Below, piece after piece: positions 10,401 to 43,400 of a stretch of DNA of 64,000 nt. The notes below the pieces were generated by a model that did no database searches, was not told the DNA's origin, and saw only the letters and a list, made by a program, of their open reading frames with translations. The stretch is from Strigops habroptila (Eukaryota > Chordata > Aves > Psittaciformes > Psittacidae). The stretch is from the NCBI RefSeq assembly GCF_004027225.2, contig NC_044301.2, forward strand, positions 26,682,629-26,746,628, in the 5' to 3' direction. The stretch's first letter is position 1, and the number at the start of each line of letters is the position of its first letter. The position numbers were made by a program, and so were the translations under genes.

Positions 10401-13400
10401 ACCCCTTGATACCTTGATGGTATCGGAGTACACTGTGCACCGGTATCTACTAGAGCCTTATACTTCTGTGGGACTGATGTGCCAGGCCATCTGATCCACA
10501 CAGTCCACTAAACCCGATTGTCCCTCTCCTCCACCTGGCTGGAGGCAGGGCCCCTCTAATAGTGATCATAAAATTCTCCACTTATGTCTTGTAGAAAGGG
10601 ATTAGTATTCCTTATCACAGGAGCTGGAGTAAAATCAGCTCTTCCACTCCATCTGGGAAACTGCTCACCAGACACTGGAGCAGCAGCTTTCCTGGGAGGA
10701 TCATCCTTGACCATTGTTCTCCTCTTCAGTTCACGCACCCGTTGCTCCAGAGCTGAAGTAGGTTTTCCATCCCACTTTCTCATGTCTTCTCCGTGATCCG
10801 ACAGGTAAAACCATAGGGTGGCCTGTGGCGTTTACTTCCTTTATCTTCTTTCTTGAGCAGTAGGGCGCCTTCTGTTAATAGCTGAGACATGGGTTGGTAC
10901 GCGTGGGGAGCTGGATAGATCGGATAAATGGTCTCTCAATTGTTTGAACTCCTGGGACAGTTTTTCCACAGCTGAAATGATGGAAGGGGTGAGATTGTCT
11001 TCGAACTCTCGGAGTTGATGAATCAGGCAATCCACTGTTGGTGATACTCTGTCATTCCAGGTCATTGATGCCAATGAGTGGGCATATGATGATGGTGCAC
11101 TCCGTGTAAGTTTCAACCACATGGGTCGTGTACATTCGACTTCATCTGGATCTACAGATGTGTTCCTGGCATCCGGCCTACAATAGATCATCTCTAGAAT
11201 GGCTGATTCCCTCAGGGACTGGATGCCTTTCTCTATCGTGGTCCACTTGGCTGAGGGACTCCTAACATCGTCTTTGTGGGGAACCTTTCTTTCACAGTTG
11301 CCAAGAGCCGTCTCCAAAGGCTGAGGGCTTGCTTCTCTCTTGCAATCGCTTTGTAAATTCCTCCTTCCCTAGGAAGTGATCCCAGCTGCTTGGCTTCCCT
11401 ACCTTCTAGTTCGTGACTGTCGGCCCCATTGTCCCAGCATCGGAGCAACCAGGTGACAATGTGCTCCCCTGGAAGATGGGTGAAATCTTTTTGCATATTC
11501 CGCAGCTCGGCTGAGGTCCGGCGTCGAGAAGTCACCTTTTCTTCTTCTTCCTCTGATCCACATAGTAGTAACTCTTGTTCAGATGCTGTCCTCTGTACTA
11601 AGTGCACTGGGACTTCATCTTTGTTCACTATACAGGTTGCTCTTTGTGCCTCTCGTTTGCTTTTGCTTACAGGGGCAACAGATATTGTCGCAAACTGGCC
11701 ATTTGGTTTAGCTGCAGTGTTTGTCACTGTGGTTGGAGTGGCTGCAGTGTCTGTTGCCGGGGTTGGTGCAGCTGTTGCGCTTGGGGGTTGAGTAACACCA
11801 ATAGCTGCGTTGTCTGTTGTGGTCAGGGTTTGAGTAGCTGCTGTGCTTGTCACTGGGGTTGGTGGAGCTGCTGTGCTTGGAGTTGGAGTAGCTGCTGTGT
11901 CTGTTGTTTTACCATCAGATCCAGAGACATTTTTTTCCCTTTGAAGGTTAGTACTGAAAAGGGCTCTGGAGCCTGAGGCCAAGCCCCAGCATGCTGCAGT
12001 GAGCTTACCATCTCTGGTATAACCAGAACGACAGCACAACTCCTTTAAGTGTTCTACTACTTTTTCTGGATTTTGCACTTTTTCAGTGGTGAAGTTCCAA
12101 AGCACTGGAGGGGCCCACTGGCCTAGGTGCTTGCCAATACTATCCCACACACCCTGCCACTCATGACTGTCCAGCCTCAGGGAAAATCTCTTGGTGGTCC
12201 TCCTATATCGTCGTCTAACCCTAGACCAGATTCGAACCCGATACTGCTTGACTTTCGAAATCAGATGAACTAGGGTGTTCCCAAGGTGGGATGGTTGTGA
12301 GTAAAACACACTCCGTATGTGTGCCAACATGGTGATCCCCAGCACAATCAGCAGGCAGATCTCAAGGGTATTCAAAGGCCATCCAAAACCTTCAGCACTC
12401 TCAAATGCTGTTGTAAATAGGCTGGTGGGAGAGCGGGGGGTGTAAGGGAATTCCTCCTTCGAAGATTGACCCCCCAAGGGGAAAAAAAAAAAAAAGCTAT
12501 GTAATTTCAAAAAAATTCCATTGTATACCTCTCAAAGTATAGAGGTGATGGCCACACCGGAAGCACAAACCAGACCAGTTTCATGATCCATGAGTCTATT
12601 GTATTACAAGTCATTACCATGAAGTACAGTGAAACAAGAACCTTAGCCCAGGCCCCCCAGCCGATAAACACTAAAACAGCAAATACTGGCTCTAAGTAAG
12701 GTACGACATGCTGAAACTCTCAAATCAAGCGCAGTGACTCTGAGAGCAAATAAATCACCATTGTGACAAGTAGTAACAATGAATGCTTATCACAAATATG
12801 ATTAGACACACTCTGGTCAGATCTGTCGTTATCTCAACCCTTTGTGCCCCACGTTGGGCGCCACAAAGAACTGTCGTGGTTTGAGCCCAGCCGGTAACTC
12901 GGAACCATGCAGCCGCTCACTCACTCCCTCCCTTCTTCCTCCCCCCGCTCCCAGAGGGATGGGGAGGAGAATCGGAAGAATGTAACTCCCACGGGTTGAG
13001 ATAAGAGCAGTCCCGCAACTAAGGTATAATACAAAACCACTACTGCTACCACCAATAATAATAATGATAAGGGAAATAACAAGGGGAGAGGATACAATTG
13101 CTCACCACCCACCGACCGATACCCAGCCCAACTCGAGCAGTGATCTGGGCTTTCCAGGTGTCTCCCCCTGGTTTATATACTGGGCATGATGTGCTGTGGT
13201 ATGGAATACCCCTTTGGCTAGTTTGGGTCAGGTGTCCTGTCTCTGCTTCCTCCCGGCTTCCCCTCCTCCCTGGCAAAGCATGAGACTGAGAAAGTCCTTG
13301 GTCGGAGTAAACATTACTTAGCAACAACTAAAAACATCGGTGTTATCAGCATTGTTCCCTGGCTGAAAGTCAAAAACACAGCACCGCACCAGCTACTAAG

Positions 13401-16400: not shown

Positions 16401-19400
16401 CCACTAGACAGGACGTATTGTTTTTTTCAGTTCTTACCACTCAGTGAGTGCCAAGACCACAATCCCACCAACTACCTCTCCTCATCCCACTGCTCAAGAA
16501 AAATTTGAAGAACCAAATAGTAGCAGGAATTTGAGGAAGAACGATGGAAGCACTTCAAAATAATTTCCCCCACTTTTTTCTTGAATCATACTTACATGTC
16601 TAGGCTAAGTACAAAGAAAAAAGCCTGAGTATATCAGAACTGTTTCCAGAATACCTAACCACATCTCCATGGGCTCTTATCATCTAAAAAACATGGGCAC
16701 ATCACCTCTATCTAATCCATTAGGCCCACAGTGCCCTGTCCCCTCATTGTATCCTGACAGTGAAAGAAAATGGGACAAAACAAATCCTTCAGAGGATTCA
16801 CAGGGGTCAAATGTCACCAAGATGCAGAGGATTTAGAATGAACAACTGAAACCATTTCTGTAAAACTGGTCTGATGGCATGCCTTCATCAAAAGTATTAA
16901 AAACAATACAGAAGAACTATCAAAACCACAAACTTCCAAACATAGCAATAAAGCAGTTGGTTTGAATGATTTCTTCCACCTGTAAAAAGCTGACGTGGTT
17001 TAAGCCCAGCCAGGAATCCCCCCCAGTTTATATACTGGGCATGACATACCGTGGTATGGAATACCCCTTTGCCTAGTTTGGGTCAGGTGTCCTGTCTCTG
17101 CTTCTTCCCAGCTTCTTGTGCCTCTCCTCAATGGCAAAGCATGAGAGACTGAAAAGTCCTTGATCAGGGTAAGCATTACTTAGCAACAACTAAACGGTCA
17201 GTCTGTTATCAGCATTGTTCTCAGACTAAAGCCAAAATACAGCACTGCACCAGCTACTAAGGAGAAAAATTACTGTTACAGCTGAACGCAGGACACTCAT
17301 TGAGCAATGTCTAAGGCCAGCTGGATGGCTTTTACCTCTGCAAACTGACTCAATTTGCCTTCTCCTTCAGCAACTTGTTGTAGGGGACTCCATACAGCTG
17401 CCTTCCATCTCTGACACTTTCCGACAAAATGGCAGGACCCATCAGTAAACAAGGTATATTGCTTTTCACTCTCTGACAGTTCATTATATGGTGAGGCCTC
17501 TTCAGTGCGCATCACCTCCTCCTCTGGTGACATTCCAAAATCTTTGCCCTCTGGCCAGTCCATGATGACTTCTAGAATTCCTGGACAACTGGGATTTCCT
17601 ACTCAAGCTGTAATTAGTGTGGCCCACTAACTCCATGTAGCATCAGTTGCATGATGTGTAGAAGAGACGCTGCCTTTGAACATCCAGCCCAACATGGGCA
17701 ACCGGAGTGCCAGGAGGAGCTGTGCTTCAGTGCTAATCACTTCCAAAGCAGCTCAACTCCTGTGGGACTGACATGCCAGGCCATCTGATCCACACAGTCC
17801 AGTAAACCCGATTGTCCCTCTCCTCCACCTGGCTGGAGGCAGGGCCCCTCTAATAGTGATCATAAAATTCTCCACTTCTGTCTTGTAGAAAGGGATTAGT
17901 ATTCCTTATCACTAAGAGTTGGAGTAAAATCAGCTCTTCCACTCCATCTGGGAAACTGCTCACCAAAGACTGGAGCAGCAACTTTCATGGGAGGATCATC
18001 CTTGACCGTTGTTCTCCTCTTCAACTCACACACTCGTTCCTCCAGAACTGAGGTAGGTTTTCCATCCCACTTTCTCATGTCTTCTCCGTGATCCCGCAGG
18101 TAAAACCATAGGGTGGCCCATGGCATGTACCTCCTCTATCTTCTCTCTCGAGCAGTAGGGCGCCTTCTGTTAATAGCCGAGATGCGTGTCTGTACACATG
18201 GGGAGGAGAACAGATCGTCTCTCACTTGCTTAAACTCCTGGTACAGTTTTCCAGAATTGAAATGACAGAAGGGGCAAAATTGTCTTCAAACCCCCAGAGC
18301 TGATAATTCACTTCATCCACTGTTGGTGCCGCTGCATCCCTCCAGCTCATTGATGCCCTGTAAATTTCCACCACATGGGTCATGTACTTTCAACTTCATC
18401 TGTACCTACGAGTGTATTCCCAGAGTCCAACTTAGGATAGGTCATGTCTAGAATGGCTGATTCCCTCAGGGACTGGAGGCCTTTCTCTATCATGGTCCGC
18501 TTGCCTGGGTGACATATAACATTGTCCTCATAGGGATAACCTTTCCTTCACAGCTGCCAAGAGCCGCCTCCTCCAGAGGCTGAGGATTCGTTTCTCTTTT
18601 ACAATCACTTTGTCGATTCCCCCTTCCCCAGCAAGTGATCCCAGCTGCTTGGCTTCCCTACCTTCTAGTTCGTGACCATCAGCCCCAGTGTCCCAGCATC
18701 GGAGCATCCAGGTGATGATGTGCTCACCTGGAAGACTGCCAAAATCTTTTCGCATATTCTGCAGCTCAGTCCAGGACAGGGATCAAGAAGTTACCTCTTC
18801 CTCTGTTTCTTGTACTAATTCCTCTTGTTCAGGTGTCACCCTCTTTAGTTCATGCATTTAGACTTCATCTTCCTTTACTACATGAGTTGCTTTTCGTTTG
18901 CATCTCCTCTTGCTTATAGGGGCAAGTACTACTGTCTTTCACTGGGGTTGGAGTAGCCATGTTGTCTGTTGCTTTGCCATCAGATCCAGAGACATCTTTT
19001 TCCAGAGACGCTCTGTAGACGTAGGCCAAGCCCCAACATGTTGCAGCAAGTTGTCCCTCTCTTGTATTGCCAGGACAACAGCACACCTCATTTAAGTGTT
19101 CTGCTAATTTCTCCGGATTTCGCACTTGTTCAGGGGTGAAGTTCCAAAGCACTGGAGGGGCCCACTGGCCTAGGTACTTGCCCATGCTATCCCACACACC
19201 CTGCCACTCATAACTGTCCAGCCTTAGGGAAGATCTCCAGGTGGTATTGTTAGCTAGTTGCTTAACCTTAGACAAGCCCCAAGCCTGACCCTGCTTAGCT
19301 TCCGATATCAGATGAGATCAGGCGTTCTCATGGTGGTATGGCTGTAGGCAAAACATATGCAGCATATGCAGCAGCATGCTGGTTCCCAGCAAAAGGAGCA

Positions 19401-22400
19401 GGCTGGTTTCAAGGGTACTCAAAGGATATTCCGAATCTATAAAATTCTCAAATGCTACTGTAAATAACCTGGTGGGGGAGGGGAAGGTGCAGGAGGATGT
19501 GTCCTCCATAGGTTGGCCTTCCAAGGAGGGGGGGGCATGAGGTGATGGCAACGTTACCATAAAAGTCGGTCGGAGAAACTCTCTAAGACTCAATTTGGAG
19601 TTTTAGAAAGCAGGCATTCTTTATTGCAGCACTGGGCACACACACAAATTGTTTTGCAAAGGTGAGTGCACCCATTACTTGCTATATATTTAGCATACTC
19701 ATGCATATTCATAGCTTTCCCAGGAACTAATTATAATATTTGTATTCTAATTAAGCATGCGCTTTCTTGCTGAGTGGGAGTCTCTGGTGGTTGCTGATAG
19801 TCTTCCTCACTGTGTTTACTGAATGACCTCAGTGCTTGCGCACGCTCGCAAGGTCCTAGTGCTGAGTTACCAGTTGGTATGTCCTTGCTTCTGTTCTGTT
19901 CCAGTCTCGCTCCACATTGGGTGCCACTCTGCTGTCTTGAAGGCTGGCATCCTTGGTCTTATTTACTGTCTCCTTAGTTGTTATCAGGATGTTCCTTCCC
20001 CCGTCAGCCAAACATTCCTTTCTCTCTACATGTTAGTAAGTTAGAGCAGTTTGGTCTATTCTACTATGTGAAAGGCACACACACTATTGTTAGTTTAAAA
20101 TTTAAGCCTACAGCAATGCTGAAAACACATACCAGGTCAGTTTTATGATCAATAATTCTATTGTATCACAAGCCATTATCATAAAGTACAATGAAACGAG
20201 AACCTTAACCCAGGCCCCAAAGCCGATAAACACTAAACCAAAAAATACTGGCTGCAAGTAAGGTGTGACATACTGAAACTCTGAGACCAAGCGCAACAAC
20301 TCTGAGAGCAAATAAACCAACATTGTGACAAGTGACTATTAATCTGAAACAATGAATGCTTATCACAAATTCGTTTTGACACACTCTGGTCAGATCTCAA
20401 CCCTTTGTGCCCCACATTGGGCACCACAAAGGATTATCATGGTCTAAGCCCAGACAGTAACTCACCATGCAGACGCTCACTCCCCCCCTTCTTTCTCCCC
20501 TCTCTGCACAGGATGGGGAGGAGAAAGGAAACAATGTAAACCCCATGGGTTGAGATAAGAACAGTCCAGCAACTAAGGTATAATACAAAACTACTACTGC
20601 TACCACCAATAATAATAATAAGGGAAATAACAAGGGGAGAGAATATAAAACTAAAAAGGGAAGGAAAAAAAACCCAACAATAAACCCAAGTGACGCACAA
20701 TACAATTGCTCACCACCTGCCAAACGATACCCAGCCCAACCCGAGCAGCAATCTGCCCATCTGGGTAACTCCCCCCAGTTTATATACTGGGCATGATGTG
20801 CTGTGGTATGGAATACCCCTTTGGCTAGTTTGGGTCAGGTGTCCTGTCTCTGCTTCCTCCCGGCTTCTTGTGCCTCTCCTCAATGGCATAGCATGAGAGA
20901 CTGAAAAGTCCTTGATTGGGATAAGCATTACTTAGCAACCACTAAACTGTCAGTGTGTTGTCAGCATTGTTCTCAGACTAAAGCCAAAACACAGCACTGC
21001 ACCACAGCTACTAGGAAGGAAAAACTGTTACAGCTGAACCCAGGACGAAAGCATTCTTAAAATGCTTCTATGTGTATTTAATCCTTAGTAATAGCCAACA
21101 TATCTGCCAACTGTTTACTAGCTGGCTTTAAAATAGTTCCTGTGACTACTTAAACACTGGTGCAATCTTTCATCCATAGAAGGGCTTTAGGATAAGATGC
21201 TCACATCACACAAAAAAACCATCAAGATAACAGCAAGTCACCTAGCACATTGTGCTGTTCTCATTACAAACATCTTCCATAAAAGTTAAATTAATACACT
21301 AGCTGCTCCTGCAAGGCACATTACAAGACCCTGTGCTGTCTACTGTTCCCCTGTATGTGGGTACCAGAAAAAGACTACACCTTGTTCACACAAGGTCTTT
21401 GGCTATGGGGAACCATTGGACAGACCACAGAGGACAAACAAATAGGTCCAAATTCTAAACATCCAAGTGGTGAAACAGAATGATTACCTGAGTTGCTGGA
21501 TCAAAATAAAATAAACCTGTGTCAAAACCAGTACCTGTGGCATAAGGTCTCCAGCATGGGGTCTCCAGCATGGAAAACATCTATCAGGCAGACATCTGAA
21601 GAATCTAGTCTCTGCAACTATTAAGAAGTTAGTATTTCCAAGACTGACCCGATTTATACTCGTTAATGCTGAGTCAGCAGGAGCATCAAAATTAAAAGGA
21701 TGAGCTAAGTGCAGACTGGGTCAAGGCCCTGGTCTCTGGTTCCTCCACAGTTTCCAGAAACATGTTTCAACATTCTGACATGAGAAATGCTTTGCAGGAA
21801 GTACAACGCTACCTCACAAGCTACACAACTCCACAATCTGAGGTTCTAAATGTACAGCAGGCCATTTTCAGTACCAACACCTCGAGAGCTCTTGCTCCGC
21901 TTGAAACAAACTGCTTATCCCCCATGGACTCTGTGATACTGGCAGATACTAGTCACACAGATTAGCACACGACTGGAAGGCACTCAAACCATGGGATAAT
22001 GGATGTGGCATGAGAAGCCTTGCAGGAAAATATCTGCAAGGTACAATTCTAAGATTTGAATATCACTATCATCATACAGTCTTAACTGAGATGTATGAAA
22101 CAGGATCAGAGGATAGCTGCTATAGGAACGGAGTAAGTCCTTCTTACAATAAAAAAAGGTGCAAAGATAGACAGACTGGACACTACTTGCTATACTATAA
22201 TTCTCAAATACCATATATTAAGACTAAAAAGCTCAATGTTTACTCAAAATTACAGACTGTTCCCATTCAACCTTCTCTGGGCATTTGCACATTTCACATC
22301 CATCCTTTGCAGGAAAGAAAATGCTGACAAACAATCCAGAACAAGGGGAAGCCTAACTAAAACCTGAGAAAAACATCTATATTGCTTTACTGAAAACCCC

Positions 22401-25400
22401 GAGGCATCAAGCTAAATCAATGTTTGCAGAGTCAGGAGAGAGATGAATAGCTTAGTGTGTATTTAATTACATTAAGTTACATTAACGGAATACACTTGGC
22501 AGGGTCCCTCTCGAACAGCATCACACAAGCCACCACCAGGAAGACATTTTAGTCTGCAAGATTTAATGCTTTTTGCTGAGAGCTTGAGGACTGCCATGAG
22601 GTGTCACTGCTAGTACCTCTACAGAAAGAAACCTAAATGTTTTATTCCACTTCCATCACTGCTGGGTATTAAAATCAAGGAAACTACTCGCGGTTGCCCA
22701 ATCCATATAAAGGCATATTTAAAATGTTCATGAAAGGACAAGATATTAGACACATTCATATAAGGAAAGATTAAACAGACTAGAATTCTTTTGCTTGGAA
22801 GGGAAGTCAAAAGGGGAACAGGAGAAAGGTCTATAAAAATCACAAATGGTATGAAGAAGAGTAAACAAGGAATGATTCTTTGCAGTTTTTCACTGTAAAT
22901 GTATTATATGACAGCCAAAGACATTATCAGACAGAAGATTCAGAACAAATAAAAGAGCTCTTTCACGTACACAAAGCCAAGTTAAAGGCAGAATTTGTTG
23001 CCTTTGGATATTGCAGAGGCCAAACTATAAATGAGTTCAATAAACAATCAGACAGCTTTCCAGAGTCCATCTGAGGCTATCAAACCTAACAGGCTTGTGC
23101 AACCCTCAGCTCAGGCACACCCTCAAAAACCAGCAGCTGCAAGGATAAGAGACCCTTTCCAGCAGCACAGCAAGATGTGCGGATCCACAACTTAGCTGAG
23201 CACCACACACTTCTGCTGACTGAGCTACTCCTTTGTTCATGACCAGACAGAACAGCTCCCACTGAAATGAATAGCTGGGCCACACCCTGCAACCCAAAAC
23301 ACACCACCACAGCACCAAGGAGGCAAAACTTGGGCAATGCAACACTCCCTGATAAACCTACACCATGCTGGCACACATACGATGCATCCTTCTGCCACAC
23401 CAAGATAAGAGACACACCCACCACCAAGACCCCACCTATTAAAGACACTGACAAATCTTCAATACGTTCCACTGTGTAATTACAAATCTGGCCTTGCATA
23501 TTTTCTTATTTAGGGAAAAGTAAGCTGACATATGAAACTGAACTGTTGTGTGACCAGCATCATACTATCAGCTAACTCCAAGTATGAATTCAAGATAGGA
23601 GAAGAAAAACAAACTGTACATGCTACTTGTTATCTGAACTAAGGATATGCTAACACGACTGAAATGCAATTATACTGGTTACCTCCCTGTTGCTGAAGAT
23701 TATCACTTCCTCAGGCAGAGTGCAACAACCCACTGTAACATCAAAAACATACTGACGCTCGTTCCACAAGCATACTGTTTACTCCATGCTGTCAAGGGTT
23801 CAGGAGTGCAAAAACACGTGCTGCTCATCTCAGTTGAGACACTATTCTTGGCACAAACATAGTCTCATTCTTTTTGGGAAGAAATTAAAAAGGAAATAAA
23901 ACCTCAAAGGAACAAGCTGAGGTGCACATTACACTTTGATGGACACTGTCTCCCTCTCTCTAGCAGCTATTTCAACTAACCCTTCTTGCAACATTCATGA
24001 AGCACAACCATTATTTTCTCATAGGCTGCCATTTGGTTTCAACATCATCTTACGGATTTATCCTCTCATTCGCTCCTTCAGACAAAGATTTTTTTTTGAA
24101 GGCTTAAAATCTAAAGAGAAAAAGCATGCAGACCCAGCAACTACTCTAAAACAAGGAAAGGCTTGTTTGCATCTTTGGAGTTTCTTCCTTGTAGAGTGTC
24201 CAGGGTTCAGCTATAGCAGTCATTTTTCTCCTTCTTAGGAGCTGGTACAGTGCTGTGTTTTTTAACTTTCAGCCTGGGAACAACGCTGATAATACACCAA
24301 TGTTTTTAGTCGTTGCTAAGTAACGTTTACTCTGACCAAGGACTTTCTCAGTCTCATGCCCTGCCAGGGAGGACGGGAAGCCGGGAGGAAGCAGAGACAG
24401 GACACCTGAACCAAACTGGCCAAAGGGGTATTCCATACCACAGCACGTCATGCCCAGTATATAAACCGGGGGGAGTTACCCGGAAGATCCAGATCACTGC
24501 TTGAATCAGGCTGGGTATCGGTCGGCGGGTGGTGAGCAATTGTATCCTCTCCCCTTCTTATTTCCCTTATCGTTATTATTATTGGGGGTAGCAGTAGTGG
24601 TTTTCTATTATACCTTAGTTACTGGACTGCTCTTATCTCAACCCGTGGGAGTTACATTCTTCCAATTCTCCTCCCCATCCCTCCGGGAGCAGGGGGAGGA
24701 AGAAGGGGGGGAGTGAGTGAGCGGCTGCGTGGTTCCGAGTTACCGGCTGGGCTCAAACCACGACAGTTCTTTGTGGCGCCCAACGTGGGGCACAAAGGGT
24801 TGAGATAACGACAGATCTGACCAGAGTGTGTCTAATCATATTTGTGATAAGCACTCATTGTTACTACTTGTCACAATGGTGATTATTTGGCTCTCAGACT
24901 TATTGTGCTTGATCTCAGAGTTTCAGCATGTTGTACCTTACTTAGAGCCAGTATTTGCTGTTTTAGTGTTTATCGGCTGGGGGGCCTGGGCTAAGGTTCT
25001 TGTTTCACTGTACTTCATGGTAATGACTTGTAATACAATAGACTCATTGATCATGAAACTGGTCTGGTTTGTGCTTCCGGTGTGGCCATCACCTCTATAC
25101 TTTGGGAGGTATATAATGAAATATTTTAGCAATTGCATAGCTTTTTTTTTCTCCTCAGGGGGTCAACTTAGAAAGGAGGCATTCCCTTTCACCCCCTGTT
25201 CCAACACCAGCCTATTTGCAACAGCAGTTGAGAGTTCTGAAGGTTTTGGATGGCCTTTGAATACCCTTGAGACCTGCCTGCTGATTGTACTGGGGATCAC
25301 CATGTCGGCAAACATATGAAGTGTGTTTTAACCATGGCCATCCCACCCTGGGAACACCTTATTTCGTCTGATCTCAAAAGTTAAGCAGTATCGGGTTCAA

Positions 25401-28400
25401 ATCTGGTCTAGGGTTAGACAACGATATAGGAGGACCACCGAGAGATTTTCCCTGAGGCTGGACAGTCATGAGTGGCAGGGTGTGTGGGATAGTATGGGCA
25501 AGTATCTAGGCCAGTGGGCCCCTCCAGTGCTTTGGAACTTCACCCCTGAACAAGTGCAACATCCGGAAAAACTAGTAAAACACTTAAACGAGGTGTGCTG
25601 TCGTTCTGTTTATACCAGAGAGGGACAAATCATGGCAACGTGCTGGGGCTTGGCCTACGCCTACAGAGCCCTGCTCAACACTAACCTTCAAAGGGAAAAA
25701 AATGTCTCTGGATCTGATGGCAAAGTAACAGACAATGCAGCTACACCAACTACAAGCACAGCAGCTACTCAAACCCTGACCACAACAGACAACGCAACTA
25801 CTCCAACTTCAAATACAGCAGCTACACCAACCCCAGCGACAAGCACAGTAGCTACTCAAACCCCGACAGCAATAAACAATGCAGCTGTTGCTGTTACTCA
25901 ACCCCCAAGCACAACAGCTGCACCAACCCCGGCAACAGACACTGCAGCTACACCAACCCTAGTGGCAGACGCTGCAGCCACTCCAATCCTAGTTGCAGAC
26001 ACTGCAGTCACTCCAACCACAGTGACAAACACTGCAGCTAAACCAAATGGCCAGCTTGTAACAATGTCTGTTGCCCCTGTAAGCAAAAGCAGACGAGAGG
26101 CACAAAGAGCAACCCCTGCAGTCAAGAAAGATGAAGACCCAATGCCATTACTACATGCAACAGCATCTGAACAAGAGTTACTACTACGTGGATCAGAGGA
26201 AGAGGAAGAAGAAGTGACTTCTCGACCCCGGACGTCAACTGAGCTGCGGAATATGCGAAAAGATTTCACCCGTCTTCCAGGGGAGCACATTGTCACCTGG
26301 TTGCTCCGATGCTGGGACAATGGGGCCGACGGTCACGAACTAGAAGGGAGGGAAGCCAAGCAGCTGGGATCACTTCCTAGGGAAGGAGGAATTGAAAAAG
26401 CGATTGCAAGAGAGAAGCGAGCCCTCAGCCTTTGGAGGCGGCTGTTGGCAGCTGTGAAGGAAAGGTTTCCCTACAAAGACGATGTTAGGAGTCCCTCAGC
26501 CAACTGGACCACGATAGAGAAAGGCATCCAGTCCCTGAGGGAATCAGCCATTCTAGAGATGATCTATTGTAGGACGGATGCCAGGAACACATCCGTAGAT
26601 CCAGATGAAGTCGAATGTACACGACCCATGTGGTTGAAACTTACACGGAGTGCACCATCATCATATGCCCACTCATTGGCATCAATGACCTGGAATGACG
26701 GAATATCACCAACAGCAGATTACCTGATTCGTCAACTCCGAGAGTTCGAAGACAATCTCACCCCTTCCATCATTTCAGCTGTGGAAAAACTGTCCCAGGA
26801 GTTCAAACAATTGAGAGACGATTTATCCGATCTATCCAGCTCCCCACGTGTACCAACCCATGTCTCAGCTATTAACAGAAGATGCCCTACTGCTCGAGAA
26901 AGAAAATATAGGAGGTACACGCCACGGACCACCCTATGGTTTTACCTGTGGGATCACGGAGAAGACATGAGAAAGTGGGATGGAAAACCTACCTCAGTTC
27001 TGGAGCAATGTGTGCGTGAACTGAAGAGGAGAACAATGGTCAAGGACGATCCTACCAGAAAAGCTGCTGCTCCAGTGTCTGGTGAGCAGTTTCCCAGATG
27101 GAGTGGAAGAGCTGATTTTACTCCAGCTCCTGTGATAAGGAATACTAATCCCTTTCTACAAGACATAAGTGGAGAATTTTATGATCACTATTAGAGGGGC
27201 CCTGCCTCCAGCCAGGTGGAGGAGAGGGATAATCGGATTTACTGGACTGTGTGGATCAGATGGCCTGGCACATCAGTCCCACAGAAGTATAAGGCTCTAG
27301 TAGATACCGGTGCACAGTGTACCCTGATGCCATCAAGGTGTCAAGGGGTGGAACCCATTTGTGTTTCTGGAGTGACAGGAGGATCCCAAGAGTTGACTGT
27401 ACTGGAGGCTGAAATCAGCCTGACTGAGAGGAAGTGGCAAAAACACCCCATTGTGACTGGTCCAGGGGCTCCATGCATCCTTGGCATAGACTGTCTCAGG
27501 AGAGGGTACTTCAAAGACCCAAAAGGGTATAGATGGGCTTTTGGTATCGCTGCCTTGGAGACAGAGGAAATTAAGCAGCTGTCCACCTTACCCGGTCTCT
27601 CAGAGGATCCTTCTGTTGTGGGGTTGCTGAAGGTCGAAGAACAACAAGTGCCAATCGCGACCACAACAGTGCACCGGCGGCAATATCGCACTAATCGAGA
27701 CTCCCTGATTCCCATCCATAAGCTGATCCGTAGACTGGAGAGCCAAGGAGTGATCAGCAGGACCCACTCACCCTTTAATAGCCCCATATGGCCAGTGCAA
27801 AAGTCTAATGGAGAGTGGAGACTAACAGTAGACTATCGTGGCCTGAATGAAGTCACACCACCATTGAGTGCTGCCGTACCGGACATGCTAGAACTTCAAT
27901 ATGAACTGGAGTCAAAGGCAGCCAAGTGGGATGCCACAATTGACAGTGCCAATGCATTTTTCTCAATCCCTTTGGCAGCAGAATGCAGGCCACAGTTTGC
28001 TTTCACTTGGAGGGGCGTCCAGTACACTTGGAACTGACTACCCCAGAGGTGGAAACACAGCCCTACCATCTGCCATGGATTGATCCAGACTGCACTGGAA
28101 CAGGGACAACCTCCAGAACACCTGCAATACATTGATGACATCATCGTGTGGGGTGATACAGTGGAAGAAGTTTTTGAGAAAGGGAGGAAGATAATCCAAA
28201 TCCTGCTGAAGGCCGGTTTTGCCATAAAAGGGAGTAAGGTCAAGGGACCTGCACAGGAGATTGAATTTTGGGAAATAAAACGGCAAGATGGACGTTGCCA
28301 GATGCCCACAGACGTGATCACAAGATAACAGCAATGTCTCCACCAACTAATAAGCAAGAAACACAAGCTTTCTTAGGTGTTGCAGGGTACTGGAAAATGC

Positions 28401-34400: not shown

Positions 34401-37400
34401 TTTTTGGCTTGCCAATATTAATAACCGGCTTTCCTTTATGTGGAAAACAGAAGCATACTCCCACTGCTCAAACACAAATGGATCCACACTGTTCCTGCTT
34501 TTCTCTTCAGTTTTTAAGAGGGTAGAGAACATTCTGGAAATTATCGCTGGTTAAAATTCCACATCCTTGTAGTTGACGCAGACTGGAAAGTAGATCTGGC
34601 CCAAAGCAGTTTGATAGTGCCTTGTTTTTCATAGGCTTCACTCGGAGGCTCTATTTGTGAATTACAAATACAACAGGCTTTGAGAGACCCATGGTTATTA
34701 GTGAAACTTTATGTGCCCCAGTTCTGCATGCCGAAAATCATCATGGCCTGATTTCTCCTGAAAAACTGCATTTACATACTTTTAACTAAAATATGCAAAC
34801 ACATTTCAAACCACTGCTATTGCATTTACACAGAGCAACTTATGCCTTTGACTTTCCTTTTAAAAAAATATACAGAATCTATTCAAACTGCTGCTGCTAC
34901 TTTCATCTTTTGCAGGATCCTGTTTGTAAAAAGCCTGGGGTTCAATGCTAAATTTTTAAAAACATTCTCACCTAGCCCAAGAGCAAGACTAAACCACCTG
35001 AGTTTTCAGCCCTGCTTAACTCCTTTCTCTGGGCATATGCCTGCCTACTCCCTCTTAAACATGAGGGCAGATAAACCATGCACTCAGCATATGAGGACAG
35101 AAAGCACTCCTCCAGCAATCAAGGCACAAAACAAGGTACAATAGGGAACTTGGACTGCCAGTGCTGATAAATGACTACAAAACACACTGGAGAAATGCTA
35201 CCAAGCACAAACCAAGTACAGCAGAACCCATGTTATAAGTATTCTGAAATTTTGCACTTGAAAAAAAAAAATCTGACAAAGTTCATTAAGGAAGCAGGAG
35301 TTTCAAGTTGGGCTTAGAAAACACAATAGGAACACTGGAAAAGTTCGCTTCAGAAATGTCGTGGTTTAAGCCCAACCAGTAACTCAGAACCACACACCCA
35401 TTCACTCACACACACACACCCCCCTTCCCCCCCTCCAGGCAGGATGGGGAGGAGAATCGAAAGAATGTAAACCCCATGGGTTGAGATAAGAACAGTCCAA
35501 TAACTAAACATAAAACTACTACTATGTCGTGGTTTGAGCCCAGCCGGTAACTCAGAACCACACAGCCGCTCGCTCACTCCCCCCCTTCCCCCCCCCGCTC
35601 CCGGAGGAATGCGGAGGAGAATCAAAAGAATGTAACTCCCACGGGTTGAGATAAGAGCAGTCCCGCAACTAAGGTATAATACAAAACCACTACTGCTACC
35701 ACCAATGATAATAATGATTAGTGAAATAACAAGGGGAGAGGATACAATTGCTCACCACCCGCCGACCGATACCCAGCCCGACCCGAGCAGTGATCTAGCC
35801 CTTCCGGGTAACTCCCCCCGGTTTATATACTGGGCATGACGTGCTGTGGTATGGAATACCCCTTTGGCTGGTTTGGGTCAGGTGTCCTGTCTCTGCTTCC
35901 TCCCAGCTTCCCCTCCTCCCTGGCAAAGCACGAGACTGAGAAAGTCCTTGGTTGGAATAAACATTACTTAGCAACAACTAAAAACATCAGTGTTATCAGC
36001 GTTGTTCCCAGGCTGAAAGTTAAAAAACACAGCACTGCACCAGCTACTAAGAAGGAGAAAAATGACTGCTATAGTTGAACCCAGGACAGTATCCACCCCT
36101 TATTCCATACCATTCACGTCATGCTCAGATCCCACATCTCTCAACACACCATCACCCCTGTCCCATATATACACATATATACACACCCACACACAGAGAA
36201 AGATATCATTCCCTAATCCATGGACCAATCCCTATGAAATTGCTGAACTCATCCAGTCCATGATGTCAGGCTCCATCTCTTGTAACAGTCTTTCAGGGCA
36301 GGAGGGACGGTATGTAGGGTTGTTGCCTGCTGATGATACCGCCAAACTCGTCTGGTCACTGCTGAGCTCGTCTGGTTTCCTCAAAAGTCATTCTTTGTTG
36401 AGGTGATGATCGGAGGGAAGTCAGGATCAATTGCTGGCGACCTGAAGATATCTAGCTGGTGGGCTATAAAAGTGTTATAGAGCAGGCAACAGCGTACAAT
36501 TGAGTTCATTGGCTGTTTTACCCCAAAATCAAATCCCCTTGAGGTACACATCGGACTTTGCCATCTTCCCGCATTACCCACCAAGTATATCCAGGTCCCT
36601 GAGCAAAAGCAACCCCACGAGTGGGTTTGCCTTTCCCTGAAGCAGGAATAACCCAGACTGTCTTCCCCAGCAAATTCTTTATGTGCGCCACAAGAACTTT
36701 ATCCCCCTCTACAGTAGGTAAAAGTTCTGATTGGGCTGGGCCAGCCCTGTTGGCAGATCCCCTAGTGTTGACCAACCAGGTGGCTTTTGGTAAATGTGTA
36801 TCCCAGTGTTTGAAAGTCCCACCACCCATTGCTCTCAGTGGAGTTTTTAACAGCCCATTGTACCCTTCGATTTTCCCAGAGGCTGGTGCATGGTAGGGGA
36901 TGTGGTATACCCACTCAATGCCATGCTCTTTGGCCCAAGTGTCTATAAGGTTGTTCCGGAAATGAGTCCCATTGTCTGACTCAATTCTCTCTGGGGTGCC
37001 GTGTCGCCACAGGACTTGTTTCTCAAGGCCCAGGATAGTGTTCCGGGCAGTGGCGGGGGACACAGCGTATGTTTCCAGCCAGCCGGTGGTTGCTTCCACC
37101 ATGGTAAGCACATAGCGCTTGCCTTGGCGGGTCGGTGGGAGTGTGATATAGTCAATCTGCCAGGCCTCCCCATACTTGTACTTCAGCCATAGTCCTCCAT
37201 ACCAGAGAGGCTTTAACTGCTTGGCTTGCTTAATTGCAGCACATGTTTCACATTCGTGAATAACCTGGGCAATAGTGTCCATTGTTAAGTCCACCCCTCG
37301 ATCACGAGCCCATCTATATGTTGCATCTCTGCCTTGATGGCCTGAGGTGTCATGGGCCCACAGGGCTAAAAATAATTCACCCTTATGTTGCCAGTCTAAG

Positions 37401-40400
37401 TCCATCTAAGCCACTTTAATCTTAGCAGCTTTATCCACTTGCTGGTTATTCTGGTGTTCCTCAGTGGCCCGACTCTTGGGTACATGAGCATCTACGTGGA
37501 GTACCTTCACCACCAGGTTCTGCACCCGGGCAGCAATATCTTGCCACAATGCAGCAGCCCAGATGGGTTTACTTCTGCGTTGCCAGTTGCTCTGCTTCCA
37601 TTGCTGCAACCACCCCCACAGGGCATTTGCCACCATCCATGAGTCAGTATAGAGATCAAGTACTGGCCATTTTTTGTCATTCGGTAATGTCCAAGGCAAG
37701 CTGGATGGCTTTCACCTCTGCAAACTGACTCTATTCACCCTCTCCTTCAGCAGTTTCTGCAACTTGTCCCAGGGGACTCCACACAGCTGCCTTCCATCTC
37801 CAATGCTTTCCCACAATAGGGCAGGACCCATCAGTAAACAAGGCATATTGCTTTTCACTCACTGACAGTTCATTATATGGTGGGGCCTCTTCAGCACGCA
37901 TCACCTCCTCTTCTGGTGACATCCCAAAATCTTTGCCCTCTGGCCAGTCCATGATGACTTCTAGAATTCCTGGACGACTGGGATTTCCTATTCGAGCTCG
38001 TTGTGTAATTAGTGCGGCCCACTTACTCCATGTAGCATCAGTTGCATGATGTGTAGAGGAGACCCTGCCTTTGAACATCCAGCCCAGCACAGGCAACCGG
38101 GGTGCCAGGAGGAGCTGCGCTTCAGTTCCGATCACTTCTGAGGCAGCTCGAACCCCTTCATAGGCTGCCAGTATCTCTTTTTCAGTGGGAGTATAGCTGG
38201 CCTCGGATGCTTTATATCCCCGACTTCAAAAGCCGAGGGGTCGACCTCGAGTCTCCCCTGGAGCTTTCTGCCAGAGGCTCCAGGTAGGACCATTCTCCCC
38301 AGCTGCGGTATAGAGCACATTTTTCACATCTTGCCCAGTCTGGACTGGTCCAAGGGCTACTGCATGAACTATTTCTCGTTTAATTTGTTCAAAGGCTTGT
38401 TGTTGCTCAGGGCCCCATTTGAAATCATTCTTCTTCCGGGTCACATGGTAGAGAGGGCTTACAATCAGACTGTAATTTGGGATGTGCATTCTCCAGAACC
38501 CCACAACACCTAAGAAAGCTTGTGTTTCTTTCTTGTTAGTTGGTGGAGACATTGCTGTTATCTTGTTGATCACGTCTGTGGGCATCTGGCGATGTCCATC
38601 TTGCCATTTTATTCCCAAAAATTCAATCTCCTGTGCAGGTCCCTTGACCTTATTCCGTTTTATGGCAAAACTGGCCTTCAGCAGGATTTGGATTATCTTC
38701 CTCCCTTTCTCAAAAACTTCTTCTGCTGTATCACCCCACAAGATGATGTCATCAATGTACTGCAGGTGTTCTGGAGCTTGCCCCTGTTCCAGTGCAGTCT
38801 GGATCAATCCATGGCAGATGGTAGGGCTGTGTTTCCACCCCCGGGGCAGTCGGTTCCAAGTGTACTGGATGCCTCTCCAAGTGAAAGCAAACTGTGGCCT
38901 GCATTCTGCTGCCAAAGGGATTGAGAAAAATGCATTGGCAATGTCAATTGTGGCATACCACTTGGCTGCTTTTGACTCCAGTTCATAATGAAGTTCTAGC
39001 ATGTCCGGTACGGCAGCACTCAATGGTGGTGTGACTTCGTTCAGGCCACGATAGTCTACTGTTAATCTCCACTCTCCATTAGACTTTTGCACTGGCCATA
39101 TGGGGCTATTAAAGGGTGAGCAGGTCCTGCTGATCACTCCTTGGCTCTCCAGTCTACGGATCAGCTTATGGATGGGAATCAAGGAGTCTCGGTTGGTGCG
39201 ATATTGCCGCCGGTGCACTGTTGTGGTCGCAATTGGCACTTGTTGTTCTTCGACCTTCAGCAACCCCACAACAGAAGGATCCTCTGAGAGACCGGGTAAG
39301 GTGGACAGCTGCTTAATTTCCTCTGTCTCCAAGGCAGCGATACCAAAAGCCCATCTATACCCTTTTGGGTCTTTGAAGTACCCTCTCCTGAGATAGTCTA
39401 TGCCAAGGATGCATGGAGCCCCTGGACCAGTCACAATGGGGGGCTTTTGCCACTTCCTCCCAGTCAGGCTGATTTCAGCTTCCAGCATAGTTAACGCTTG
39501 GGATCCTCCTGTCCCTCCAGAAATATAAATGGGTTTCACCCCTTGATACCTTGATGGCATCAGGGTACACTGTGCACCGGTATCTACTAGACCTTATACT
39601 TCTGTGGGACTGATGTGCCAGGCCATCTGATCCACACAGTCCAGTAAATCCGATTATCCCTCTCCTCCACCTGGCTGGAGGCAGGGCCCCTCTAATAGTG
39701 ATCATAAAATTCTCCACTTATGTCTTGTAGAAAGGGATTAGTATTCCTTATCACAGGAGCTGGAGTAAAATCAGCTCTTCCACTCCATCTGGGAAACTGC
39801 TCACCAGAGACTGGAGCAGCAGCTTTCCTGGGAGGATCATCCTTGACCATTGTTCTCCTCTTCAGTTCACGCACCAGTTGCTCCAGAGCTGAAGTAGGTT
39901 TTCCATCCCACTTTCTCATATCTTCTCCGTGATCCCGCAGGTAAAACCATAGGGTGGCCCGTGGCATGCACCTCCTATATTTTCTTTCTCGAGCAGTAGG
40001 GCGCCTTCTGTTAATAGCTGAGACATGGGTTGGTACGAGTGGGGAGCTGGATAGATCGGATAAATCGTCTCTCAATTGTTTGAACTCCTGGGACAGTTTT
40101 TCCACAGCTGAAATGATGGAAGGGGTGAGATTGTCTTTGAACTCTCAGAGTTGACGAATCAGGCAATCCACTGTTGGTGATATTCCGTCATTCCAGGTCA
40201 TTGATGCCAATGTGTGGGCATATGATGATGGTGCACTCCGTGTAAGTTTCCGCCACATGGGTCGTGTACATTCGACTTCATCTGGATCTACGGATGTGTT
40301 CCTGGCATCCGGCCTACGATAGATCATCTCTATAATGGCTGATTCCCTCAGGGACTGGATGCCTTTCTCTATCGTGGTCCAGTTGGCTGAGGGACTCCTA

Positions 40401-43400
40401 ACATCGTCTTTGTAGGGAAACCTTTCCTTCACAGCTGCCAACAGCCGCCTCCAAAGGCTGAGGGCTCGCTTCTCTCTTGCAATCGCTTTATCAATTCCTC
40501 CTTCCTTAGCAAGTGATCCCAGCTGCTTGGCTTCCCTCCCTTCTAGTTCGTGACCGTCGGCCCCATTGTCCCAGCATCGGAGCAACCAGGTGACAATGTG
40601 CTCCCCTGGAAGACGGGTGAAATCTTTTCGCATATTCCGCAGTTCGGTTGAGGCCCGGGGTCGAGAAGTGACCTCTTCTTCTTCTTCCTCTTCCTCTGAC
40701 CCACGTAGTAGTAACTCTTGTTCAGATGCTGTTGCATGTAGTAATGGCATTGGGTCTTCATCTTTCTTCGCTTCGCGGGTTGCTCTTTGCGCCTCTCGTC
40801 TGCTTTTGCTTACAGGGGCAACAGACATTGTCACAAACTGGCCATTTGGTTTAGCTGCAGTGTTTGTCACTGTGGTTGGAGTGGCTGCAGTGTCTGCCAC
40901 TAGGACTGGAGTGGTTGCAATGTCTATTGCTGGGGTTGGTGCAGCTGTTGTGCTTGGGAGTTGAGTAACACCAACAGCTGCATTGTCTGTTGCTGTCGGG
41001 GTTTGAGTAGCTACTGTGCTTGTCACTGGGGTTGGTGTAGCTGCTGTATTTGAAGTTGGAGTAGCTGCGTTGTCTGTTGTGGTCAGGGTTTGAGTAGCTG
41101 TTGTGCTTGTCACTGGGGTTGATGTAGCTGCCGTACTTGGAGTAGCTGTGTTGTCTGTTGCGGTCAGGGTCTGAGTAGCTGCTGTGCTTGTAGTTGGCAT
41201 AGCTGCGTTGTCTGTTGCTTTGCCATCAGATCCAGAGACATTTTTTTCCCTTTGAAGGTGCTGGATAGTGTTGAGCAGGGCTCTGTAGGCGTAGGCCAAG
41301 CCCCAGCACGTTGCCATGATTTGTCCCTCTCTGGTATAACCAGGACGACAGCACACCTCGTTTAAGTGTTTTACTTGCTTTTCCGGATGTTGCACTTGTT
41401 CAGGGGTGAAGTTCCAAAGCACTGGAGGGGCCCACTGGCCTAGTTACTTGCCCATACTATCCCACACACCCTGCCACTCATAACTGTCCAGCCTCAGGGA
41501 AAATCTCTTGGTGGTCCTCCTATATCGTCGTCTAATCCTAGACCAGATTCGAACCTGATACTGCTGAACTTTTGAGATTAAACGAAATACGATGTTCCTA
41601 CGACGGGATGGCCATGGGTAAAACACACTCCGTATGTTTGCCAACATGCTGATCCCCAGCACAATCAGCAGGCAGGTTTCAAGGGTATTCAAAGGCCATC
41701 CAATACCTTCAGAACTCTCAACTGCTGTTGCAAATAGGCTGGTGGGGGAATGGGGGGTGAAAGAGAATGCCTCCTTCGTAAGTTTACCCCCCGAGGAGAA
41801 AAAAAAAGATATGCAATTGCTAAAATATTTCATTATATACCTCCCAATATATAGAGGTGATGGCCACGCTGGAAGCACAAACCAGACCAGTTTCATGATC
41901 AATGAGTCTATTGTATTACAAGTCATTACCATGAAGTACAGTGAAACAAGAACCTTAGCCCAGGCCCCCCAGCCAATAAACACTAAAACAGCAAATAGTG
42001 GCTTTAAGTAAGGTACAACATGCTGAAACCCTGAGATCAAGCGCAACAAGTCTGAGAGCCAAATAATCACCATTGTGACGAGTAGTAACAATGAATGCTT
42101 ATCACAAATATGATTAAACACACTCTGGTCAGATCTGTCGTTATCTCAACCTTTCGAGCCCCACGTTGGGCGCCAAAAAGAACTGTCATGGTTTGAGCCC
42201 AGCCGGTAACTCAGAACCACACAGCCGCTCGCTCACTCCCCCCCTTCCTCCCCCCGCTCCCGGAGGGATGCGGAGGAGAATCAAAAGAATGTAACTCCCA
42301 CGGGTTGAGATAAGAGCAGTCCCGCAACTAAGGTATAATACAAAACCACTACTGCTACCACCAATGATAATAATGATTAGTGAAATAACAAGTGGAGAGG
42401 ATACAATTGCTCACCACCCGCCGACCGATACCCAGCCCGACCCAAGCAGTGATCTGGGCCTTCCGGGTACCTCCCCCCGGTTTATATACTGGGCATGACG
42501 TGCTGTGGTATGGAATACCCCTTTGGCTAGTTGGGGTCAGGTGTCCTGTCTCTGCTTCCTCCCGGCTTCCCCTCCTCCCTGGCAAAGCACGAGACTGAGA
42601 AAGTCCTTGGTTGGAATAAACATTACTTAGCAACAACTAAAAACATCAGTGTTATCAGTGTTGTTCCCAGGCTGAAAGTTAAAAAACACAGCACTGCACT
42701 AGCTACTAAGAAGGAGAAAAATGACTGCTATAGCTGAACCCAGGACATACTACTACTAATAATAATAATGATAAGGGAAATAACAAGGGGAGAGAATATA
42801 AAGCTAAAAGGGGAAAGGAAAAAAAAAAAACCCACAAACAATAAACCCAAGTGATGCACAATACGATTGCTCACCACTCACCGACCGATACCCAGCCTGA
42901 CCCGAGCAGCAATCGGTAACTCTCTCCAGTTTCTATACTGGGCATGATGTGCTGTGGTATGGAATACCCCTTTGGCTAGTTTGGGTCAGGTGTCCTGTCT
43001 CTGCTTCCTCCCGGCTTCTTGTGCCCCTCCTCACTGGCAGAGGATGAGAGACTGAAAAGTCCTTGATCAGAGTAAACATTACTTAGCAACAACTAAAAAT
43101 ATCAGTGTGTTATCAGCACTGTTCCCAGACTGAAGCCAAAACACAGCACTGCACCAGCTACTAGGAAGGAAAAAAAAAACCCTAACTGTTACAGCTGAAA
43201 CCAAGACAAGAAATAAACTGGAAGCTTGTCGCTGTGAATATAGTAGCTAACCAGATGGTGAGATTTAACTTTATGTTGTCCTGAAATTTACTTTTCATGT
43301 GTACTTTCAGCAATTCCATACGGAAATGTACAGACACCAGTCACACACCAAGAAATAACGAAACACAATATCTGAGGCAACACATTGCAGTCTTACCTGT

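Follow-up and report, generated by a model that had tools for sequence, protein, structure and literature searches.

A predicted membrane-spanning N terminus of Gag in an env-less, ERV-L-like retrovirus lineage of birds

In MLV, an in-frame N-terminal extension sends Gag into the secretory pathway; in the account cited here (PMC5120145), the resulting glycogag is an extra form that starts at an upstream CUG and carries 88 residues in type II orientation, with the N terminus inside and the C terminus outside. The preliminary description of the locus studied here regarded gammaretroviral glyco-Gag as the only Gag with a membrane leader, which overlooks the mouse IAP, whose nascent Gag is brought to the ER membrane by SRP, albeit with no translocation in vitro, and the likewise ER-directed Gag of the yeast Ty1 (PMC3945221). 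Both IAP and MuERV-L lack env, and their Gag or particles go to the ER (PMC3945221, PMC8096092, and PMC5930517). The Gag of foamy viruses, which is not myristoylated and has no membrane signal of its own, relies on the membrane-anchored leader of Env, to which it binds (PMC7828637). The frog class III endogenous retrovirus XtERV-S, in the sections cited, has an ERV-L-like Gag without a myristoylation signal or a Cys-His box and with polybasic regions near the N terminus; it retains an env gene, and its tagged Gag reaches the plasma membrane and the nucleus (PMC8278194).

The window analyzed here (the whole stretch of 64,000 nt from Strigops habroptila) contains several copies (A, B, C, and D) of one retroviral family, in which gag opens with a leader of three to four hydrophobic segments (Table 1). 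Similarly to that of glycogag, this leader is an in-frame N-terminal extension; in contrast to it, the leader has its start at the first AUG in copies A, B, and C, and its charges predict that the C terminus is inside. The start in these three copies is not that of glyco-Gag, an extra form initiated at a non-AUG codon ahead of the usual AUG of Gag, and the candidate N-glycosylation motif N-x-S/T, seen in 22 of the 25 leader-bearing relatives described below, is absent from its place in all three. The lack of env is shared with IAP and MuERV-L, which were compared by description; a polytopic leader with a glycosylation site is not mentioned for either in the cited parts of those papers, and it is the leader profile by itself that suggests an IAP-like SRP route to the ER for the bird Gag. 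With foamy viruses, the family shares a related pol, a Gag without myristate, and membrane contact (predicted here) through a membrane-anchored leader, which in birds is fused to Gag instead of belonging to Env. As to homology with the foamy Env leader, 17 Gag relatives matched 10 Pfam families at E values up to 1, none of them a foamy one. XtERV-S likewise has no myristoylation signal or Cys-His box, but differs in its polybasic N-terminal regions, its env gene, and the destination of its Gag. Searches of the open-license literature, several of them aimed at known parallels, returned no polytopic leader as the regular start of Gag.

Table 1. Features of the retroviral copies, in window coordinates; E values refer to a profile built from 12 leaders that lie outside it
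Copy	Feature	Position	Strand	Basis or remark
C	Primer-binding site	42158..42175	-	Starts 102 nt ahead of the leader ATG; no other ATG in this interval
C	Putative membrane leader of Gag, 209 codons, open	41447..42073	-	ORF; profile E = 9.8e-22
C	First hydrophobic helix pair, residues 2-34, break near residue 20	41972..42070	-	Hydrophobicity; model pLDDT 63
C	Second hydrophobic helix (a long one, or two short ones), residues 37-69	41867..41965	-	Hydrophobicity; model pLDDT 63
C	Place of the conserved N-x-S/T, residues 86-88, here NCI (lost)	41810..41818	-	Alignment with relatives
C	Last hydrophobic helix, residues 129-150	41624..41689	-	Hydrophobicity; model pLDDT 63
C	Basic stretch past the last hydrophobic helix, residues 153-190	41504..41617	-	Sequence, alignment
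C	In-frame TAA between leader and gag body	41444..41446	-	Sequence; no stop at this junction in copy B
C	gag body, to the next in-frame stop at 40145	40145..41443	-	ORF
B	Leader, two in-frame stops	24876..25502	+	ORF; profile E = 5.4e-24
A	Leader, interrupted by stops and a frameshift	12130..12761	-	Profile E = 7.8e-13 (first piece)
D	Leader, first 69 codons, divergent subfamily	20117..20323	-	Profile E = 1.1e-14
D	Leader, rest beyond the insert	19175..19528	-	Profile E = 2.5e-7

The class of this family was judged from several features. Among solved structures, to which this comparison was confined, the integrase of copy C best matched PFV integrase (E = 3.2e-15, versus 7.9e-6 for the first match taken as non-foamy), and its RT best matched Pr125Pol (8.1e-44), which we take to be foamy, with p80 RT, presumably of the MLV type, close behind (1.2e-43). 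In these match lists, the integrase is thus by far nearest to the foamy type, and the RT is nearly equally close to the foamy and MLV types. Table 2 of PMC8278194 gives QX3EX4(hydrophobic)X2R as the major homology region of ERV-L; in its strict form, this pattern was not found in any of the 25 leader-bearing relatives, and neither was the Cys-His box CX2CX4HX4C. Within the integrase ORFs of copies B and C, the Pfam matches include no dUTPase, a domain that in ERV-L proper follows integrase. Copy C has no env-sized frame: only ∼520 nt separate the end of the integrase ORF at 36518 from the LTR, and none of the three sense frames in this gap has an open run much over 50 codons. ERV-L proper carries a Leu primer-binding site, and copies A, B, and C have instead TGGCGCCCAACGTGG, which we take to be of the Lys type. 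Given this primer site and the absence of the strict major homology region, "class III, ERV-L-like" is a fair label, whereas "ERV-L" is not established; from its sequence features, the family can fairly be described as an avian retrovirus lineage of class III, ERV-L-like and without env.

The leader start codons given in the preliminary description, at 42073 (C, minus strand), 24876 (B, plus strand), and 20323 (D, minus strand), are all correct, and the translations confirm the order of hydrophobic stretches, basic stretch, and gag in one frame. The leader is longer than the ∼170 residues assigned to it, reaching 209 codons in copy C, up to the TAA at 41444-41446. Leader and gag body share a frame in copies B and C, as had been noted, but are separated by this stop in C, and the leader of B, whose gag body (25482-27194, plus strand) follows in frame, contains two stops. 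Copy D does have its ATG and a hydrophobic opening, but its frame is broken at about codon 69 by an insert, beyond which the leader picks up again at 19528. Copy A (12761-12130, minus strand), missing from that description, is a fourth member of the set. The gag body of copy C comprises a W.PP..W.FTPEQ domain, a T/A/P-rich linker, and part of a capsid-like region. This repetitive linker, which joins the N-terminal domain to the capsid part, varies in length (C, 40145-41443; B, 25482-27194) and is very long in ducks, where it consists of AP repeats (P0058 and P0077). In copy B (27150-27260, plus strand), Gag closes at a single TAG, and the next ORF, with protease and RT matches, lies in the same frame, an arrangement that resembles those of Gag-Pol made by stop readthrough.

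The good start context reported earlier applies to copies A, B, and C, which share CACAATGG around an ATG that follows the start of the primer-binding site by 102 nt, none occurring in between, so that the leader begins at the first AUG past the primer site and in a strong context. In copy D, the context reads CACAATGT, an intact primer site is lacking, and the stretch upstream holds other ATGs.

The preliminary description suggested looking for the same N terminus in gag entries of other birds, and it was found there. The gag body of copy B, used as a query, gave 215 protein matches, and a profile search gave 544; 120 matches of each search were listed, and the 153 Gag relatives fetched in all were examined. 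These are predicted database proteins, with a bias to open frames. Among the matches listed, all named sources are birds except for one entry filed under Klebsiella; this protein, P0072 (Klebsiella pneumoniae), is the same bird gag and, therefore, probably represents bird DNA in a bacterial assembly. Altogether, 98 of the 153 relatives match a profile of the leader and the next domain, and 25 of the 153 carry a nearly full leader that shares its reading frame with gag: 8 from Anas, 5 from Morphnus, 2 from Buteo, 1 each from Anser, Theristicus, and Manacus, and 7 further entries. Such Gags are thus predicted in duck, goose, eagle, buzzard, ibis, and manakin. The remaining 73 of the 98 do not have the complete leader: they begin inside it or after it, or other sequence stands in front. 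The gene models that carry joined gag include USP4 models of Buteo, Accipiter, and Tyto, and matches to gag extend to AMFR models of parrots and owls; gag in bird gene models could be either exonised retroviral gag or an annotation artefact. Scanning of viral contigs and genome contigs found no DNA of the relatives for a codon test.

For the reverse comparison, 12 outside leaders less than 75% identical to each other, cut 22 residues before a W-x-G-x-W motif, were made into a profile and run against 2,666 stop-to-stop pieces of the window. Its only matches below an E value of 0.05 were the leaders of the four copies (Table 1); the second piece of copy A reached only 0.31. The next-best piece, at 13594-13418 on the minus strand (E = 0.058), resembles the loop part of the leader and may be what is left of another copy or a chance match. 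In leave-one-out profiles, all 12 nonredundant leaders were recovered with E values of 1e-20 to 1e-55, calculated for a search space of one sequence.

Capture of a host gene was considered as the origin of the leader and rejected. No Pfam family matches the leader of copy C at E values up to 1; there is one NCBIfam match (E = 0.13), which falls far below the cut-off of its family, and the best solved-structure match over the leader has an E value of 0.2. With residues 1 to 195 of P0003 as the query, 7 of 414 length-limited candidates matched at E values up to 10, each of them with this gag. Whole Gag relatives gave weak Pfam matches, reported without positions, the best being Mucin (E = 0.0096; 3 of 17).

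The leaders have diverged widely in sequence: among 13 of them, copy C included, 45 of 78 pairs are less than 35% identical, the lowest value being 20%. Where residues differ, they nevertheless tend to agree in hydropathy, z being below -2 for 64 of the 78 pairs and for 38 of the 45 most divergent ones. Hydrophobic stretches recur across the family at about residues 2 to 34, 37 to 69, and 127 to 150. In the loop that separates the second stretch from the third (60 columns), acidic residues average 5.5 and basic ones 2.5, whereas the 20 columns that begin where the third stretch ends contain 4.7 Lys or Arg residues on average. The candidate glycosylation motif, placed by alignment for some of the 25 rows and by residue number for the rest, occupies the same place in this loop, with Y, Q, R, S, or D in the middle; the 3 leaders that do not have it are goose and duck entries (P0101, P0127, and P0128). 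Copy B, which, like A and C, has lost it, has another such motif further on. The Asn lies ∼17 residues past the second helix, far enough by the usual distance rule for N-glycosylation. An AlphaFold model of the copy C leader, of low confidence (pLDDT 63), has helices at 2-19, 23-34, 37-69, 73-92, and 129-150; the fourth of these passes through the place of the motif, which, weak as the model is, counts against a lumenal glycosylated loop. The full-length Gag model reached a pLDDT of only 41. The alignment of relatives has an invariant W-x-G-x-W just past the leader. Gly2, as needed for myristoylation, is present in none of the 25 leader-bearing relatives, and myristoylation at an MGKYLG sequence downstream of the leader was discarded as a candidate, its sixth residue being Glu in many relatives (judged by eye). 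A PPTY late-domain-like motif is found in the gag body of 4 of the 25, from Morphnus and Buteo (P0042, P0047, P0051, and P0020); the other late-domain patterns searched for were not found in any of them.

Taken singly, the leader is unremarkable in its hydrophobicity, which is not above chance. In Wimley-White segment count, 27% of 2,000 random 627-nt window pieces, translated after deletion of stops, equaled or exceeded copy C, in which another sense frame has as many hydrophobic segments as the leader frame. For the 12 leaders, 22 to 879 of 1,000 residue-order shuffles reached the leader's own number of Kyte-Doolittle segments. Shuffles and random pieces do not set the leader apart and were dropped as a discriminating test; what places it above chance is its homology to the outside leaders and not the hydrophobicity of copy C. 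Within the proteins of 12 relatives, there are 2.83 hydrophobic segments per 100 residues in the leader versus 0.22 in the rest of gag.

The dN/dS ratio over the leader was 0.75 to 0.78 among A, B, and C and 1.23 between C and D; another alignment gave 0.75 to 0.91 and, against D, 1.10 to 1.24. For C and D, the ratio was 0.37 in the next domain and 0.53 in the capsid part; among A, B, and C, it was 0.63 to 0.64 and 0.52 to 0.79, respectively, with 0.52 to 0.56 in RT and 0.58 to 0.97 in integrase, and the bootstrap intervals of the leader values are wide and, for these three copies, overlap those of all four regions. By the C-D values, the evolution of the leader is more rapid than that of the remaining gag. 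The preliminary description had named a dN/dS near 1 as evidence against its proposal, and the window copies did give such values (0.75 to 1.24), an outcome of the neutral decay of old copies and of the rapid evolution of the leader; given this decay and the wide, overlapping intervals, the ratio among window copies was not retained as the deciding test. Over 186 codons, the leaders of C and D differ by 137 substitutions and contain 1 stop, compared with 6.4 expected under neutrality (P = 0.008) in a simulation with a substitution spectrum derived from 71 noncoding differences. In amino-acid identity, change of hydropathy, and mean hydropathy, the pair did not depart from this simulation (P = 0.80, 0.13, and 0.75, respectively). 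We read the shortage of stops as a frame that was kept open with its residues loosely constrained.

These observations allow more than one reading. The leader might act as a separate or cleaved small polytopic membrane protein, a viroporin-like or glyco-Gag-like accessory factor, leaving the mature Gag soluble. The W-x-G-x-W directly past the leader is compatible with a domain border, and the leader changes faster than what follows (C-D omega of 1.23 versus 0.37 and 0.53); accessory extensions are known from glyco-Gag, of which the N-terminal 66 residues seem to be enough (PMC5120145). We nevertheless consider such a product unlikely, as the leader and gag form one ORF in 25 relatives. A shade less probable still is a glyco-Gag-like division of labor, with the leader on only a share of Gag and the bulk, made from a downstream start or a spliced RNA, assembling in the cytosol. 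Many fetched proteins do open at downstream Met codons. In 8 Mycteria models (P0004, P0021, P0052, P0062, P0080, P0125, P0126, and P0137) and in Tyto P0049, foreign sequence is joined, as judged by eye, near the end of the last hydrophobic segment, and the profile matches of Buteo P0019 and Accipiter P0037 and P0136 open at about the same place. Such joins make leader-less messages possible and hint at a 3' splice site near the end of that segment; if proviral RNA used this site, leader-less Gag would also be made. However, the joined sequence is foreign to the element and may be a gene-model artefact, no clear splice donor was seen by eye between the primer site and the ATG of copy C, an element without env has no known need for splicing, and in A, B, and C the strong-context AUG of the leader is the first one that follows the primer site.

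A reading at the RNA level, in which the leader is a pyrimidine-rich packaging, splice, or regulatory signal whose translation is only incidentally hydrophobic and yields no membrane protein, would account for the chance-level segments of copy C, their presence in another sense frame, and the window dN/dS near 1. It appears highly improbable in view of the protein-level homology across leaders down to 20% identity, the detection of the window leaders by the 12-leader profile, the retention of N-x-S/T while its middle residue varies, and the few stops between C and D.

The data support the leader as the in-frame N terminus of predicted Gags from ducks to a manakin. On balance, it is probably the true N terminus of Gag, acting as a signal anchor for ER insertion, with a lumenal loop, a cytosolic capsid part, and assembly on ER-derived membranes. 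The earlier proposal that Gag is membrane inserted in its normal form gains from the in-frame leader in 25 relatives, the use of the first AUG in A to C, and the absence of Gly2, but not from the window dN/dS near 1. According to this signal-anchor reading, Gag would be made on ER-bound ribosomes, the nascent leader being recognized as a signal anchor and inserted co-translationally into the ER membrane. It would cross the membrane three times, or four times if the first helix pair counts as two. By the positive-inside rule, the charges of the acidic loop and of the basic stretch make a loop outside and a capsid part inside the natural layout, so that the loop with its N-glycosylation site would be lumenal and the basic stretch and capsid part cytosolic; the basic turn near residue 36 favors three crossings with the N terminus outside, four crossings with the N terminus inside being a possible alternative topology. 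Gag would thereby be concentrated on ER-derived membranes, with particles assembling there, on the cytosolic face. The leader may replace myristate and matrix, or the Env leader that foamy virus Gag needs, and targeting borne by the leader would fit a mainly intracellular cycle without env. Of the two roles suggested previously, a stand-in for env or for plasma-membrane targeting, membrane targeting and assembly is the better reading, and a role in entry in place of env is unsupported.

In its strongest form, to which we give slightly less than an even chance, the idea is that the only Gag of a widespread bird retrovirus lineage would be an obligate polytopic membrane glycoprotein with three or four passes, a glycosylated lumenal loop, and hard-wired ER assembly that depends on neither myristate nor Env. 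If true, this would add to the means by which retroviral capsids are brought to membranes. With a Gag that carries its own polytopic anchor, it would become possible to test how env-less retroviruses amplify inside germ cells, and the predicted open copies in duck and manakin make the idea testable now.
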